The notes beneath the pieces were generated by a model. That model made no database searches. It was not told the origin of the DNA and worked only from the letters and a program-made list of their open reading frames with translations. Below are positions 2,203 through 29,056 of a DNA stretch of 33,501 bases, piece by piece. The DNA comes from Chloroflexota bacterium (GTDB lineage Bacteria > Chloroflexota > Limnocylindria > P2-11E): the NCBI GenBank assembly GCA_005882765.1, contig VBDV01000131.1:1-33501 (forward strand). Direction: 5' to 3'. The number at the start of each line of letters is the position of its first letter. Position 1 is the first letter of the stretch. The translations under genes and the position numbers were made by a program.

Positions 2203-2303
2203 GGCTGAGCAGCGCCGGGGTCTTCTTCGCTCGGCCCCGGTGGGACCGCGATACACCGCCGTGTAGGGGCCGCTCGCTCAGAAGACCCCGACGCTGCTCA
2301 GCC
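2203..2303. repeat. Structured palindromic repeat, copy A
   Basis: This interrupted palindrome has an 89-bp core (2209-2297) that recurs at 10749-10837 with 83 identical positions. The pairing model from outside inward is: a 12-bp stem (2203-2214 with 2292-2303), one C/A mismatch, an 11-bp stem CGGGGTCTTCT/AGAAGACCCCG, an asymmetric internal loop, a 7-bp stem CGGCCCC/GGGGCCG, and a terminal hairpin TACAC-CGCC-GTGTA. Relative to copy B, the terminal hairpin shows a C-G to G-C double change and an A-U to G-U change. The element begins 33 bp after the pbpA stop and lies upstream of moxR. There is no T-tract on either side, so a simple intrinsic terminator does not fit. It could be a REP-like or MITE-like repeat, or a structured RNA element. 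Confidence 0.85.
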
Positions 2304-2336: not shown

Positions 2337-3776
2337 CTATTTGCCTAGCGCGGCTCGCATGACCGCGGCTCCGAGTGGCGCTGCCGTTACTCCTCCGTCT
2401 GGCGTGTTCTCAACGATCACGGCAACTACCACAGCCGGATTTTCAGCCGGGGCGAAACCAACGAACCAACCGTGCGGAGCCTCGCCTGGGCGGTTTTCGG
2501 CGGTGCCGGTCTTTCCGGCAACGTTCACGCCGGGGATCTTTGCGCCAAAAGCGAAACCGCCCTGGCCTGAGACAGCCCCGACCAGCATCGTGGTCAACGT
2601 CTTCGCGGTTGCCGGCGAGATGACTTGGCCCTGGGGGCCGGGCGCGATCTGACGGACGACGTGGCCCTCGGCGTCGCGGACTTCGGTCGCGTAGTGCGCG
2701 GTCGGCATGACACCGCCGTTGGCGATCGTCGCGTAGATGAGGGCCATCTGGAGGGGCGAAACGAGGAGCTCGCCCTGCCCATAGGACGTATCGGCGAGAA
2801 GGGTCGGCCTGTCGATCGAACCAGAATCCGAAAGCTGACCCTTCGCGGCTGGCAGATCGAGGTTCGGTGTCGACCCGATCCCGAAGCGTTTCGCGTAGTC
2901 GGTGAGCTTCGCGCCTCCGATCTGCAGACCGACCTGCGCGAAGTAGATGTTCTCCGAGAGACGGAAGCCGTCGGACATGTCGAAGAGGCCATGCGCATGT
3001 GACGCCGAGCGCACGAAGTAGTCGCCCCACGACTTGTCGGCCTGGTAAGGGTCGTCCACACGCAGCTTCTTGGTCGGGTCCAACCCGTTCTCGAGAGCCG
3101 CCGCCCCGGTAACGACCTTGAAGATCGAGCCGGGTGGGTAGAGACCCTGCGCGGCGCGATTCAGGAGGGCGTGGTTGGGGTCGTGGCTCAACTGGTCGAA
3201 AGCGGCATCCTGCTTGGGCGGGTCGACGACTTGATTCGCGTCGTAGGCCGGGACGCTGACCGAGGCGAGTATCGCGCCGGTCCGCGGGTCGAGCGCAACG
3301 ATCGCGCCCTTGCGCCCGCCGAGCGCGTCGGCCGCGGCCTTCTGGATCTTGAGATCGATGCCCAGCACGACCTGTCCCGCGGGAGCGCGATCGCCGAGGT
3401 AGCGCGCTTTCCAGATCGAGACTGGGTCGGCCGGATCCTGGCCGATGAGCGAGTCGGCGTACGCGGCCTCTATGCCGGAGAGGCCGAATTTTGCTGACGC
3501 GTACCCGACCACCTGCGCGAGCGTCCGATCCTTGTAGGAGCGCGCGAAGCCGGAGTCGGTTTTCTCGCTCGTCGCGATTGGCGCGCCGTTCCGGTCGACG
3601 ATCGCTCCGCGAGGACGATCGTTCGTCGCCGCGATGAGACGCGGGTTGAAGGGATCGTTGGCGAGCTGGTCGGACGCGAGGACCGTCCAGTAAGCAGCGC
3701 CGATCGACGTCACGAGGAACGCGAGCGCGAGCGTGAGCGTGAGGGCCCGGATGTTCGCGCTGATCGGCGAGGTCAT
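2337..3776 (-). CDS. pbpA: Penicillin-binding transpeptidase (class B-like PBP)
   Basis: This 479-residue membrane-anchored D,D-transpeptidase cross-links peptidoglycan outside the membrane. One N-terminal helix (about residues 9-33) anchors it. The catalytic motifs are intact: SxxK at S217-K220 (SIFK), SxN at 274-276 (SEN) and KTG at 422-424. The short N-terminal non-catalytic region (roughly residues 40-150) matches actinobacterial PbpA rather than the long class B PBPs. The ATG start overlaps the stop codon of the upstream SEDS gene as ATGA, giving translational coupling, and a SEDS/class B PBP pair normally works as a polymerase–transpeptidase complex. The actinobacterial homologue sits in the fhaAB-rodA-pbpA-pkn cluster and serves growth or division. 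Subtype naming is by context; enzymatic class is certain. Confidence 0.95.
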   Translation of the reverse strand: MTSPISANIRALTLTLALAFLVTSIGAAYWTVLASDQLANDPFNPRLIAATNDRPRGAIVDRNGAPIATSEKTDSGFARSYKDRTLAQVVGYASAKFGLSGIEAAYADSLIGQDPADPVSIWKARYLGDRAPAGQVVLGIDLKIQKAAADALGGRKGAIVALDPRTGAILASVSVPAYDANQVVDPPKQDAAFDQLSHDPNHALLNRAAQGLYPPGSIFKVVTGAAALENGLDPTKKLRVDDPYQADKSWGDYFVRSASHAHGLFDMSDGFRLSENIYFAQVGLQIGGAKLTDYAKRFGIGSTPNLDLPAAKGQLSDSGSIDRPTLLADTSYGQGELLVSPLQMALIYATIANGGVMPTAHYATEVRDAEGHVVRQIAPGPQGQVISPATAKTLTTMLVGAVSGQGGFAFGAKIPGVNVAGKTGTAENRPGEAPHGWFVGFAPAENPAVVVAVIVENTPDGGVTAAPLGAAVMRAALGK

Positions 3777-9329: not shown

Positions 9330-10652
9330 ATGCGGGTAAAGGCGACGATCCTCGCGACGATGATGCTGGTGAGCGCCGCATGCAGCGCGGCGGCTCCAGC
9401 ACCGCAGCAGTCAACGGAAGCGGACATCACGCTCTCGGGCCCGGTTTCCATCACGCTGTGGCACGCCCTGAGCGGTCCCCAGCAGGTGGCCCTCGACGCG
9501 ATGGTCAAGAAGTTCAACGAGACCAACGGGAAGGGCATCACCGTCACCGCCCTCAACCAGGGCAACTACACCGTTCTCGGCCAGAAGCTGATGGGCGCGA
9601 TCCAGGCCGGAAGCCTTCCCGAGCTCGCGCACGCCTACGAAAGCAACGTCGCCGACTACATGAAGGCGGCGACGGTCGTCGACCTCGGCCCGTACAAGGA
9701 CAGCAAGACGAACGGCCTTTCCAAGGCGAGCCAGGACGACATCTACAAGGGTTACTACGACACCAACATCTTTCCGCAGTTCGGCAACCAGCTCCTGTCG
9801 TGGCCGTTCACGAAGTCCCTCGCCGTCATGTACGTGAACGAGGACATCCTCAAGGAGCTCGGCAAGCCGATCCCAAAGACATGGGACGAGTTCGAGGCCA
9901 CGGCGGCAGCCGCCGTGAAGAAGGACGCCTCGGGCAAGACGACTCGCTACGGCTTCGGCTTCACCACCGACGCCTCGTACTTCAACGCTCAGGTCTATTC
10001 GCGCGGAGGCAGCCTCATGGCGGCGGACAACCAGACCGTCGCCTGGAACAGCACGCAGGGTCTGCAGGTCCTGCAGATGTACGACCGGATGAACAAGAAC
10101 GGCAGCGGGTACACGCCGGCCGGCTTCGACTGGCAGAACGATCTGCCCGGCGGCAAGCTGCTCTTCTACTTCTCGACGACCTCGTCGATTCCGTTTCTCA
10201 AGGACATCGCCGACAAGACGGGCGCGAAGTGGAGCATCGCCAACCTGCCTCAGGCAGACACCGCGAAGCCCAAGACCGTCCAATTCGGCGCCAATGTTGC
10301 GATCTTCAAGAGCACGGCCGAGAAGCAGCTCGCATCGTGGCTCTTCATCAAGTGGATGAGCGAGACCGACCAATCCGCGCAATTCGCGGCGACCTCGTAC
10401 TACATGCCGGTCCGGAAGTCCTCAGCTGACGCGCAGATCCTCAAGGACTACTGGGCCAAGGTCCCGCAGGGGAAGCAGGGATTCGACCTTATCCAATACA
10501 GCTCGCCCGAGCCGAACGTGCGCGGGCAGCAGGACGTGCGCAACGTCGTCAGCGACATGATGACGTCCGTCCTCGCCGGAAAAGCGACGCCGGACGCCGC
10601 CATCAAGGCCGCAGGAGACAAAGCGAACGCGATCTTCAAAGACAACCAGTAG
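9330..10652 (+). CDS. Extracellular solute-binding lipoprotein (UgpB/MalE-like)
   Basis: This 440-residue substrate-binding protein serves the adjacent permeases. The N-terminal signal (residues 1-17) ends in SAAC, giving C18 as a plausible lipidated cysteine; the lipobox is slightly atypical because the -3 residue is Ser. The mature domain opens with ITLWHALSGPQQ, typical of family 1 solute-binding proteins. The segments ELAHAYES and WPFTKSLAVMYVNEDIL resemble glycerol-3-phosphate/sugar binders such as UgpB, but the true ligand cannot be read from sequence. A strong ribosome-binding site, AGGAGG, lies about 9 nt before the ATG. A terminator follows 18 bp after the stop, closing the operon. 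Confidence 0.93.
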   Translation: MRVKATILATMMLVSAACSAAAPAPQQSTEADITLSGPVSITLWHALSGPQQVALDAMVKKFNETNGKGITVTALNQGNYTVLGQKLMGAIQAGSLPELAHAYESNVADYMKAATVVDLGPYKDSKTNGLSKASQDDIYKGYYDTNIFPQFGNQLLSWPFTKSLAVMYVNEDILKELGKPIPKTWDEFEATAAAAVKKDASGKTTRYGFGFTTDASYFNAQVYSRGGSLMAADNQTVAWNSTQGLQVLQMYDRMNKNGSGYTPAGFDWQNDLPGGKLLFYFSTTSSIPFLKDIADKTGAKWSIANLPQADTAKPKTVQFGANVAIFKSTAEKQLASWLFIKWMSETDQSAQFAATSYYMPVRKSSADAQILKDYWAKVPQGKQGFDLIQYSSPEPNVRGQQDVRNVVSDMMTSVLAGKATPDAAIKAAGDKANAIFKDNQ

Positions 10653-10670: not shown

Positions 10671-10708
10671 GAAGCGCCGGGACTGTCAAAGCTCCGGCGC
10701 TTCTGTTT
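10671..10708 (+). terminator. Rho-independent terminator of the sugar ABC operon
   Basis: A perfect 10-bp G+C-rich stem, GAAGCGCCGG/CCGGCGCTTC, with a 13-nt loop is followed by TGTTT. It lies 18 bp after the solute-binding protein stop codon and fits an intrinsic terminator acting on the plus strand. Confidence 0.85.
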
Positions 10709-10744
10709 GGGAGAGGCGACGCGGGTCCTGTCCCGGGGGACCGG

Positions 10745-10844
10745 GGGTGCAGCGCCGGGGTCTTCTTCGCTCGGCCCCGGTGGGATTGTGATGGACCGCC
10801 GTCTAGGGGCCGCTCGCTCAGAAGACCCCGACGCTGCGCAACCC
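10745..10844. repeat. Structured palindromic repeat, copy B
   Basis: This is the second copy of the palindrome, in the same orientation as copy A. The 89-bp core (10749-10837) differs at six positions, all in the apical part. The terminal hairpin here is TGGAC-CGCC-GTCTA, versus TACAC/GTGTA in copy A, so pairing is preserved by one full compensatory exchange and one wobble. Outside the core the flanks differ completely from copy A yet are still partly complementary (GGG with CCC). The copy lies in the convergent gap between the sugar operon and valS, about 50 bp after the valS stop. No T-tract adjoins it. Confidence 0.85.
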
Positions 10845-10893
10845 GCTCCCTCGCGTGCCATCCCGCGTCGCCTACTCTGCGCGCAGCCTTCTC

Positions 10894-13569
10894 CTACCCG
10901 CGGCGCTTCCTCATTTCGGCTTCCAAAAGCTTCATGCGGTCTTCTCGCTCTTTGAGTTTCTTCTTTTCTTTCTCGACGACGTCCTTGGGGGCCTTGTCGG
11001 CGAAGCCGGGCTTCGCGAGCAGATCTCGTGAGCGCTGAAGCATGTGCCGCGCTTCTTCGACGTCTCGTTCGAGTCTCTTGCCGTCTTGCGCTTCGTCTTT
11101 CGCGATGGCGAGGCGAATTTCGATCGCTCGCACGACGGCCGCCGCACCGTCGCCACCTGATGCGAGGCTGACCTCGCTATGCGTCAGCTCGCCGATCGGC
11201 TTGAGCAACTCCCGGACGGCTTTCGTGTCACCCGCGAGCGATACCTTGGCGCGCGCGGATGGATCGAGCCCGCCCTCCTGTCGCAGGTTGCGGATCGCGC
11301 GGACGACGTCGATGAAGGCGCCGAAGCGTTCCTCCAGCGCGAGATCACGCTCGCCCGCCTTCGGCCACGGGGAGACCACGAGCGACGCGATGTCGTCGGA
11401 TTTCCCGGTGCGCTTCCAGAGTTGCACCGCGATCGTCTCGGTGAGGAAGGGCATCGACGGATGCAGGAGGCGCAGTGACCGGTCGAGCACGTACGCGAGC
11501 GTGCGCACGGCCTCGGTCGCGTCCGAGCCACGCAGCGAGGGCTTTGCGAGCTCGACGTAGAAGTCGGCCAGCTCATTCCAGATGAAGCTCTCCAGCGCGA
11601 CGAGGTACTCGCCGAAGAGATAGCTGTCCACCAGGCGCGTCGCCTCCGCCACCGCGGCGTCGGTGCGCGAGAGGATCCACCGAGCGGCCTCGCTCTTCGG
11701 ATCGGGTCGCTGATCAGCGGTGTGACCCCTGAACGCCTCCGGGTGCTCGTCCACCTGCTTCAGGACGAAGCGGCTGATGTTCCAGAGCTTGTTCGCGAAG
11801 TTTCGCGCGTGATCGAGCTTGTTTTGCGAAAGCTGGGAGTCGGCGCCCATTGCGATGCCATGGACGAGCGCGTAACGGAGCGCGTCGGCGCCGTACTCCT
11901 GGATGAAGTCGACCGGGCTCACCACGTTGCCGAGGGACTTGCTCATCTTCACGGTGCCGACGCGCACCAGACCGTGGAGATACACCGTCTGAAAGGGGAT
12001 CTCGCCCATGTGCTCGAGCCCGAGCATGATCATGCGGGCGACCCAAAAGAACAGGATGTCGTAACCAGTCTCGAGAACGCTTCCTGGGTAGTAGCGCTCG
12101 AGGTCCGGCGTCTTGTCCGGCCACCCGAGAGTGCTGAACGGCCAGAGTCCTGACGAGAACCATGTGTCGAGCACATCTGGGTCCTGATAGATGTCATCCG
12201 AGCGGCATCGGGTGCAGCGCGTCGGATCCGGTGCGTCCTCGTCGGGCACGATCACGTTGTCGCAGTCGCGGCAGTACCACACCGGGATGGAGTGGCCCCA
12301 CCAGATCTGGCGCGACACGGACCAGTCCCGGATGTTCTCCATCCAGTTGAAGTAGATCTTCTCCTGGTACTTCGGGAGGATCGTGATGCGGCCATCGCGG
12401 ACGGCGTCGATCGCCGGCGGTGCGAGGCGATCCATGCGCACCCACCACTGCTTCATCACGAGCGGCTCATCGACGGTCCCGCAGCGGTCGTGGACCGCGA
12501 TCGCGTGCGTGATGGGCTCTTCCTTCACGAGAAGGCCGGCCGCGCGCAGCTTCTCGAGCATCATCGTGCGACCGGCGTCGCGGTCCGGACCGGCGAGGGG
12601 TCCCGCGGCCGGCGTCATCATCCCGCGCTTGTCGATCACTGAGAGCACCGGAAGGCCATGGCGCTGGCCGATCTCGAAGTCGGTCTGGTCGTGGCCGGGC
12701 GTGATCTTGAGCGCACCGGTACCGAAGGCGGGATCGACCGCCTCATCGGCGATGATCTTCACGCGCCGCTCGACACCTGGGACGAGCACCTCTTTTCCGA
12801 CGTATGACTTCCATCGCGCATCGTCCGGATGCACCGCCACCGCGACGTCGGCCACGATCGTCTCCGGACGGGTCGTCGCGACGATCACCGGAGGTGTCCC
12901 CGGCGGCATCGGGTCAGCCCACGGGTAGCGGACGTAATAGAGCGTGTCGGTCCGTTCGATGTGCCGCACCTCGAGATCCGAGTAGGTCGTCTGATCCCGC
13001 AGACACCAGTGGACGATCCGATCGGCTCGGTAGAGATGACCCTTCCGGTGCAGGCGGATGAAGTGAGTGCGCACCGCGCGCTGATGCGCCGGCTCCATCG
13101 TGAAATGCGGGCGGGACCAGTCGAGGGAGCATCCGAGCATTCGCAGCTGCTTCTCGATGCGGGGGCGGTAGTGGTCCATCCACTTCCACATCTGGGCGAG
13201 GAACTTCTCGCGACCGAGCTGCTGGCGGGTGATGCCCTCCTTCGCGAGCTCGTTCTCCACGACGACCTGGGCGATGATCCCGGCGTGGTCCGTGCCCGGC
13301 ATATAGAGCGTCGGCTCACCACGCATCCGGTGGTAGCGAGCCATGAGGTCCTCGTACCCGCCGAAGCCGAGGGCGTGGCCCAGGTGCAGATCGCCGGTGA
13401 TGTTCGGAAGCGGCAGCATCATCACGAAAGGCTTCTTCGCGTTTTCGTCGGGCGTGAAGAAGCCCGAGCGCTCCCACCACTCGTAGAGATCGGCTTCGAC
13501 GGCGGCCGGCCGGAAGTTCTTCTCCGCGAGATCGAGCGCCGACTGCGGCGGTCCTTCGTGAGTCGCCAT
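10894..13569 (-). CDS. valS: Valyl-tRNA synthetase
   Basis: This 891-residue class Ia aminoacyl-tRNA synthetase charges tRNA-Val in the cytosol. The ATP-binding HIGH motif appears as HLGH (62-65) in the context PLPNITGDLHLGHAL, and KMSKS is at 541-545. The editing (CP1) domain spans roughly 190-400, with zinc-ribbon-like CxxC pairs just after it (the CRDCDN and CTRCRSDD segments). The anticodon-binding domain and a C-terminal coiled coil rich in Lys/Glu complete the typical ValRS architecture. The ATG is preceded by AGGAG-type sequences. Expression is very likely controlled by the valine T-box leader immediately upstream, so uncharged tRNA-Val would induce the gene. Confidence 0.98.
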   Translation of the reverse strand: MATHEGPPQSALDLAEKNFRPAAVEADLYEWWERSGFFTPDENAKKPFVMMLPLPNITGDLHLGHALGFGGYEDLMARYHRMRGEPTLYMPGTDHAGIIAQVVVENELAKEGITRQQLGREKFLAQMWKWMDHYRPRIEKQLRMLGCSLDWSRPHFTMEPAHQRAVRTHFIRLHRKGHLYRADRIVHWCLRDQTTYSDLEVRHIERTDTLYYVRYPWADPMPPGTPPVIVATTRPETIVADVAVAVHPDDARWKSYVGKEVLVPGVERRVKIIADEAVDPAFGTGALKITPGHDQTDFEIGQRHGLPVLSVIDKRGMMTPAAGPLAGPDRDAGRTMMLEKLRAAGLLVKEEPITHAIAVHDRCGTVDEPLVMKQWWVRMDRLAPPAIDAVRDGRITILPKYQEKIYFNWMENIRDWSVSRQIWWGHSIPVWYCRDCDNVIVPDEDAPDPTRCTRCRSDDIYQDPDVLDTWFSSGLWPFSTLGWPDKTPDLERYYPGSVLETGYDILFFWVARMIMLGLEHMGEIPFQTVYLHGLVRVGTVKMSKSLGNVVSPVDFIQEYGADALRYALVHGIAMGADSQLSQNKLDHARNFANKLWNISRFVLKQVDEHPEAFRGHTADQRPDPKSEAARWILSRTDAAVAEATRLVDSYLFGEYLVALESFIWNELADFYVELAKPSLRGSDATEAVRTLAYVLDRSLRLLHPSMPFLTETIAVQLWKRTGKSDDIASLVVSPWPKAGERDLALEERFGAFIDVVRAIRNLRQEGGLDPSARAKVSLAGDTKAVRELLKPIGELTHSEVSLASGGDGAAAVVRAIEIRLAIAKDEAQDGKRLERDVEEARHMLQRSRDLLAKPGFADKAPKDVVEKEKKKLKEREDRMKLLEAEMRKRRG

Positions 13570-28973: not shown

Positions 28974-29056
28974 GGGCGAGTGATGAAATGGCAGACATTC
29001 GAGCTTTAGGAGCTCGTGCTCGAAAGAGCGTGAGGGTTCGAGTCCCTCCTCGCCCA
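28974..29056 (+). tRNA. tRNA-Leu (anticodon UAG)
   Basis: This 83-nt type II tRNA has a 7-bp acceptor stem GGGCGAG/CTCGCCC, anticodon stem CGAGC/GCTCG with loop TTTAGGA (anticodon TAG), a long variable arm (TGCTCGAAAGAGCGT) and T-arm GAGGG-TTCGAGT-CCCTC. The discriminator base is A, as expected for leucine. CCA is not encoded, because CGG follows. It reads CUN codons. Confidence 0.97.

Follow-up and report, generated by a model that had tools for sequence, protein, structure and literature searches.

Two long palindromes lie 3' of minus-strand genes in the 33,501-nt stretch of Chloroflexota contig VBDV01000131.1 analysed here (the window), and the question they raise is whether such a pair represents RNA elements acting at the ends of transcripts or members of a dispersed, possibly mobile, repeat. 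A sequence-only reading of the locus had described 89-bp cores at 2209–2297 and 10749–10837 with six differences, all of which were recovered (at positions 2246, 2247, 2249, 2253, 2254 and 2263). As that reading also stated, the stem of copy A continues past its core, giving a full span of 2203–2303, and copy B occupies 10743–10843. Both are assigned to the minus strand, the putative folding strand, on which they score 115 bits (copy A; 49.7 on the plus strand) and 113 bits (copy B; 43 on the plus strand) with the covariance model of the element. Compared with dinucleotide shuffles, the fold of copy A had z-scores of −6.4 (plus strand) and −6.8 (minus strand), and that of copy B −7.4 (plus strand). 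The conserved interior of copy A (2231–2284, minus strand) comprises an invariant GGCCCC/GGGGCC helix and a GAGCGA(GC)/GAGCGA internal loop.

Copy A is situated between two minus-strand genes, encoding a MoxR-type AAA ATPase (1078–2040) and a penicillin-binding transpeptidase (2337–3776), the latter having its 3' end towards the element and its stop codon 39 bp from the end of the core. Copy B lies between the 3' ends of two convergent genes, encoding a solute-binding protein (9330–10652, plus strand) and ValS (10894–13569, minus strand), with 56 bp separating its core from the valS stop. An ordinary terminator-like hairpin, read directly from the sequence (GAAGCGCCGG...CCGGCGCTTC followed by TGTTT; 10671–10708, plus strand), comes after the solute-binding protein gene, and the element of copy B is thus additional to a terminator. 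Rfam did not match the element at the gathering threshold, the sole match in the window being a tRNA gene (28974–29056), and below threshold gave no sensible match in five loci.

Copy number and probable folding strand of the element

The host genome (G000) yielded 38 BLAST matches to copy A, corresponding to about 28 full or partial copies, and 46 matches to the covariance model, these match numbers exceeding copy numbers because palindromes also match themselves on the opposite strand. The 38 BLAST matches exclude a chance likeness between copies A and B, and the dispersed, multi-copy nature proposed for the repeat was borne out both here and in relatives. Within the genus, matches numbered 24–29 in G003, 24–28 in G004 and 8–9 in G006, the lower figure being that of BLAST in each case, with zero to two BLAST matches in each of the remaining genomes; all of these genomes are incomplete MAGs and the counts are phylogenetically non-independent. 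The covariance model further found a single divergent copy in G007 as well as a weak copy in G026, a member of another genus, and the element was absent from most genera of the host family. An exact pattern scan of the genome collection returned 35 loci, all in Chloroflexi MAGs from one soil-depth series (14_0927/14_1009_..cm), which marks the host as an uncultured member of the soil Chloroflexi. No match was obtained in viral contigs with this pattern, nor in phages and plasmids by BLAST, and a strict subfamily-2 pattern searched in 177 genomes of the class matched only in G017 and G026. Tandem half copies were also seen (L013:3042–3189, L019:2423–2598, L022 and L049:2508–2671), those of G000 being joined by a recurring GGTCTGCACCGA segment.

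Alignment of 57 copies of this ~101–102-nt element, read in the minus-strand sense, located the covariation in the outer stem, where 14 of 23 pairs show two-sided changes. Pairing was retained in 95.5% of all cells, which no shuffle or slid register came close to, and the covariation score of the whole structure was 0.175 versus 0.092 for shuffled alignments, with none of 500 shuffles reaching the observed value. The case in which only two copies exist, or in which the pair arose by a recent simple duplication, is rejected. The outer stem is separated from the inner GGCCCC/GGGGCC helix, itself almost invariant across copies, by a conserved GAGCGA(GC)/GAGCGA internal loop with the potential for tandem G-A pairs. 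Selection on structure had originally been argued from the terminal hairpin, in which the compensatory exchange does occur as described (TACAC-CGCC-GTGTA in copy A; TGGAC-CGCC-GTCTA in copy B). Over the 57 copies, however, this apical helix pairs no better than shuffled sequence (68.4% versus 67.8%; 162 of 500 shuffles), and was rejected as a conserved helix. The argument for structure holds instead for the covarying outer stem, which is identical between copies A and B.

The wobbles point to a single folding strand, the minus strand of the window, since in this sense there were 40 G-U against 10 A-C cells (one near-fixed column excluded). For copies flanked by tandem genes, the skew was 9:1 with this strand antisense and 8:3 with it sense, ratios that come from small numbers of related copies. 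As the bias is also found in the antisense copies, the folding strand looks to be the element's own and not one provided by host transcription.

Copies within genes and probable turnover at shared sites

Three features went beyond the initial description, namely in-frame copies in conserved genes, the nesting of copy B and inversion at orthologous sites. Using genes called with our own codon-score script, we found an in-frame copy between the exonuclease and helicase parts of DnaQ-DinG in G000, G003, G004, G006 and G009, with Pfam domains on both sides whose boundaries place the insert in the linker. Another lies in the N-terminal extension of PyrD in G000, G002, G004, G005 and G009, with three species having it in forward and two in reverse orientation. 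Several species have no element at these sites. All in-gene copies belong to the 102-nt loop variant; the variant shorter by one base makes up 19 of the 25 aligned G000 copies and none of those within genes, which is what translation of the frame would predict. The in-gene sequence is open in frame and presumably translated.

In other species, unrelated palindromes are found in both of these linkers. The DinG linker of G001, G002, G005, G007 and G022 carries a different one (AAGGGACCCGCGAGCACG...), with additional matches in G001, G002, G005 and G007. This AAGGGACCCGCGAGCACG...ACCCCGAGAAG family was observed in frame in the DinG linker at L172, L173, L175, L190 and L191 and in DnaE at L288. 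In G018 and G020 the PyrD linker contains a third palindrome, which gave 10 matches in G018 and 5 each in G019 and G020. It recurs in frame in DnaE-type genes (G016, G018 and G019) and, in G018 and G019, within the N-terminal extension of ribosomal protein S17. In genus g5 and in G016, a GACGTTGCCTCGGGTCGCG... family was seen in frame in PyrD, DnaE and the S17 N-terminal extension (L143, L276, L279, L281, L282 and L286). A distant relative of the element itself occurs within DnaE in G017 and G026. De novo survey of inverted repeats in 416 kb of G000, 96 kb of G018 and 194 kb of G014 gave many weak matches in coding sequence and revealed one further family (L213). The palindrome GAGGGCCCCCGCGCG...GAGGGT is intergenic in the host genome (L213:17038–17138) and found in the PyrD linker of another genus (L149, G017).

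Copy B is itself nested within a separate palindromic repeat, forming a composite hairpin (10712–10873; outer module GCGACGCGGGTCCTGTCCCGG ... CGTGCCATCCCGCGTCGC) with a z-score of −7.2 for the 164-nt fold. Of the two outer arms, GCGGGTCCTGTCCCGG and CGTGCCAnCCCGC, the first occurs 8–40 times per genus genome versus 3–9 times for its reversed control. A flank motif allowing three mismatches was detected in 22 and 26 of 66 cases against 9 and 11 for the reversed control, which is too loose, and our claim for the outer module is based on exact matches and per-genome arm counts. The outer module GCGGGTCCTGTCCCGG...CGTGCCACCCGC was seen as an independent genus-wide repeat at window positions 10712–10873, L001, L003, L006, L009, L010, L015 and other loci, and also in species without the inner element. 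At site B the element is present in G000 and absent in G003, G004, G006 and G009; the outer repeat encloses other sequence in G003 and is inverted in G005, and G004, G006 and G009 have neither outer repeat nor element. Target-site duplication is unreadable here because unoccupied sites differ over the entire intergenic region.

Species have sixteen element sites in common; in seven cases one species carries the element in inverted orientation, although L013, with two opposed copies, makes one of these cases ambiguous. When species were compared at individual sites, stem changes comprised 28 two-sided, 34 one-sided but kept, and 41 broken cells. Loops were about as similar among copies within a genome as among orthologous copies (0.807 versus 0.826), and the G000-type loop occupies sites whose G004 or G006 orthologues have another loop, a pattern which indicates replacement or homogenisation in place.

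Genomic placement and competing explanations

The placement after stop codons seen in the initial reading was supported, with 28 of the 54 intergenic copies lying between convergent genes, 22 between tandem genes (10 sense, 12 antisense) and 4 between divergent ones, against a background of 54 convergent regions among 366 (15%; ~380 kb of G000). The binomial probability of this enrichment (p ~2e-10) is optimistic since orthologous copies are not independent. No bias was found in orientation relative to the flanking genes. Those around the scanned G000 copies are ordinary (ftsA/ftsZ, glutamate synthase, purH, folD, ndk and others) and include no transposase or autonomous relative. Likewise, the Y1 transposase/RAYT domain (PF01797) was detected in none of the 11 genus genomes, all incomplete MAGs, while control genomes were positive. 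Between ftsA and ftsZ, L017:2518–2619 is a copy with a strongly altered yet fully paired stem.

We conclude that the element is probably a non-autonomous selfish palindrome working in the manner of Rickettsia palindromic elements (RPE) or REPs, a reading that fits its dispersal, its preference for harmless sites, the tolerance of linkers, the changes of orientation and the lack of orientation bias. Weighing against it are the negative results for Y1 transposases in the genus genomes and for a mobiliser beside the scanned G000 copies, along with the lack of a readable target-site duplication. Among the options originally offered, a REP-like repeat or non-autonomous mobile element is the best supported, ahead of a dedicated RNA function at 3' ends. 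In the mechanism we propose, one strand (the minus strand in the window) would fold into the covarying outer stem, the GAGCGA loop, the GGCCCC/GGGGCC helix and a variable apical loop, and the element would spread by copying of this folded single strand, as ssDNA or RNA, by an enzyme acting in trans. Copies would survive mainly where insertion does no harm, namely in the flexible linkers of proteins or where two 3' ends converge, and would be turned over in place through replacement or through inversion via their self-complementary arms.

The strongest competitor holds that the element benefits the host and is conserved for that reason, its hairpin blocking 3' exonucleases or insulating convergent transcription. 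The strong preference for convergent ends, tens of bp from stops, the retention of the sixteen shared sites across species and the covariation on one strand all speak for such an RNA element, and a host function would account equally well for convergent placement and a transcribed hairpin. Yet the element has no orientation bias to genes although it has a defined folding strand, is inserted in frame within genes, is frequently inverted at conserved sites, stands at copy B behind a hairpin already resembling a terminator, and is missing from most genera of the family. We regard this explanation as unlikely for the element as a whole, and individual copies may nonetheless have a host role at 3' ends.

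Somewhat less probable still is a rival in which template-switch correction (quasi-palindrome repair), along with recombination among copies, maintains the perfect palindromes, with no selection on a folded strand. This would be in keeping with the two-sided stem changes seen when species are compared at one site, the genome-specific loop variants at orthologous sites and the in-place inversions; such correction would, however, erase wobbles, whereas on one particular strand G-U persists and A-C is scarce, and it leaves dispersal unexplained. Intrinsic (bidirectional) terminators amplified by chance similarity, for which GC-rich hairpins at convergent ends might be taken, are very improbable given that none of 57 copies has TTTT within 20 nt after the hairpin, that the ~100-nt conserved interior is unneeded for termination and that copies occur within ORFs.

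Extending the selfish-palindrome reading to the other families, we tentatively speculate that these Chloroflexi might harbour a hairpin ecology, in which unrelated and mutually nested elements would be mobilised as folded single strands by an enzyme other than Y1 and repeatedly colonise a few protein linkers (PyrD, DnaQ-DinG, DnaE and ribosomal S17), essential proteins serving as long-term harbours from which each family could re-expand. A word of caution also follows for such genomes, as 'conserved 3' hairpins' may be selfish repeats and not regulators.

Comparison with known palindromic systems

Previous descriptions assign protein-coding palindromes to Rickettsia and Wolbachia, and we know of no mobiliser for them. 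Bacterial MITEs (Correia/NEMIS, ERIC) are small non-autonomous inverted-repeat elements, some of them fused in frame to genes; the element resembles them in all these respects, but its whole length forms a single hairpin instead of being bounded by two short terminal repeats. By the tags, size and transposase tested, it belongs to neither the RPE nor the REPs.

RPE (Ogata 2000, 2002; reviewed in PMC2229807 and PMC10969869) are palindromes of ~105–146 bp that fold into a long stem-loop (PMC2229807), and the present element (~101–102 nt, just below this range) shares with them such folding, the existence of several families per lineage, the occurrence both between genes and in frame within conserved genes, where RPE add a short peptide, and the lack of a known mobiliser. 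Set beside RPE as described in these reviews, it differs in being GC-rich and from an unrelated phylum (Chloroflexi soil MAGs), and in its conserved GAGCGA internal loop, nested palindromes and inversions at orthologous sites. The RPE of R. conorii carry CGTC at one end (PMC3733652), a tetranucleotide that just 8 of the 57 copies have close to one or other stem foot.

REPs tagged with GTAG or CGTC are 20–40 bp long, and the GTAG ones are associated with RAYT transposases (Di Nocera 2013, PMC3733652). Like the element, REPs are palindromes near the 3' ends of convergent and unidirectional genes, with intragenic copies in replication and repair genes, including DnaE2/DnaE in the case of REPs. 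Unlike them, the element is ~100 bp long and has GTAG near its feet in none of the 57 copies (CGTC in the eight mentioned above), and, in contrast to the GTAG REPs, is accompanied by no Y1 transposase in the 11 genomes of the genus. These Chloroflexi offer an independent and richer palindrome system in another phylum, represented by many closely related genomes. Its shared and vacant sites, its switches of orientation and the several families per linker make the movement of palindromes testable, as well as whether palindromes create new protein segments. REPs inside DnaE2/DnaE and further repair genes, as well as placement between convergent genes, were already known from other phyla (PMC3733652), and are here met in an unrelated phylum with palindromes of ~100 letters.
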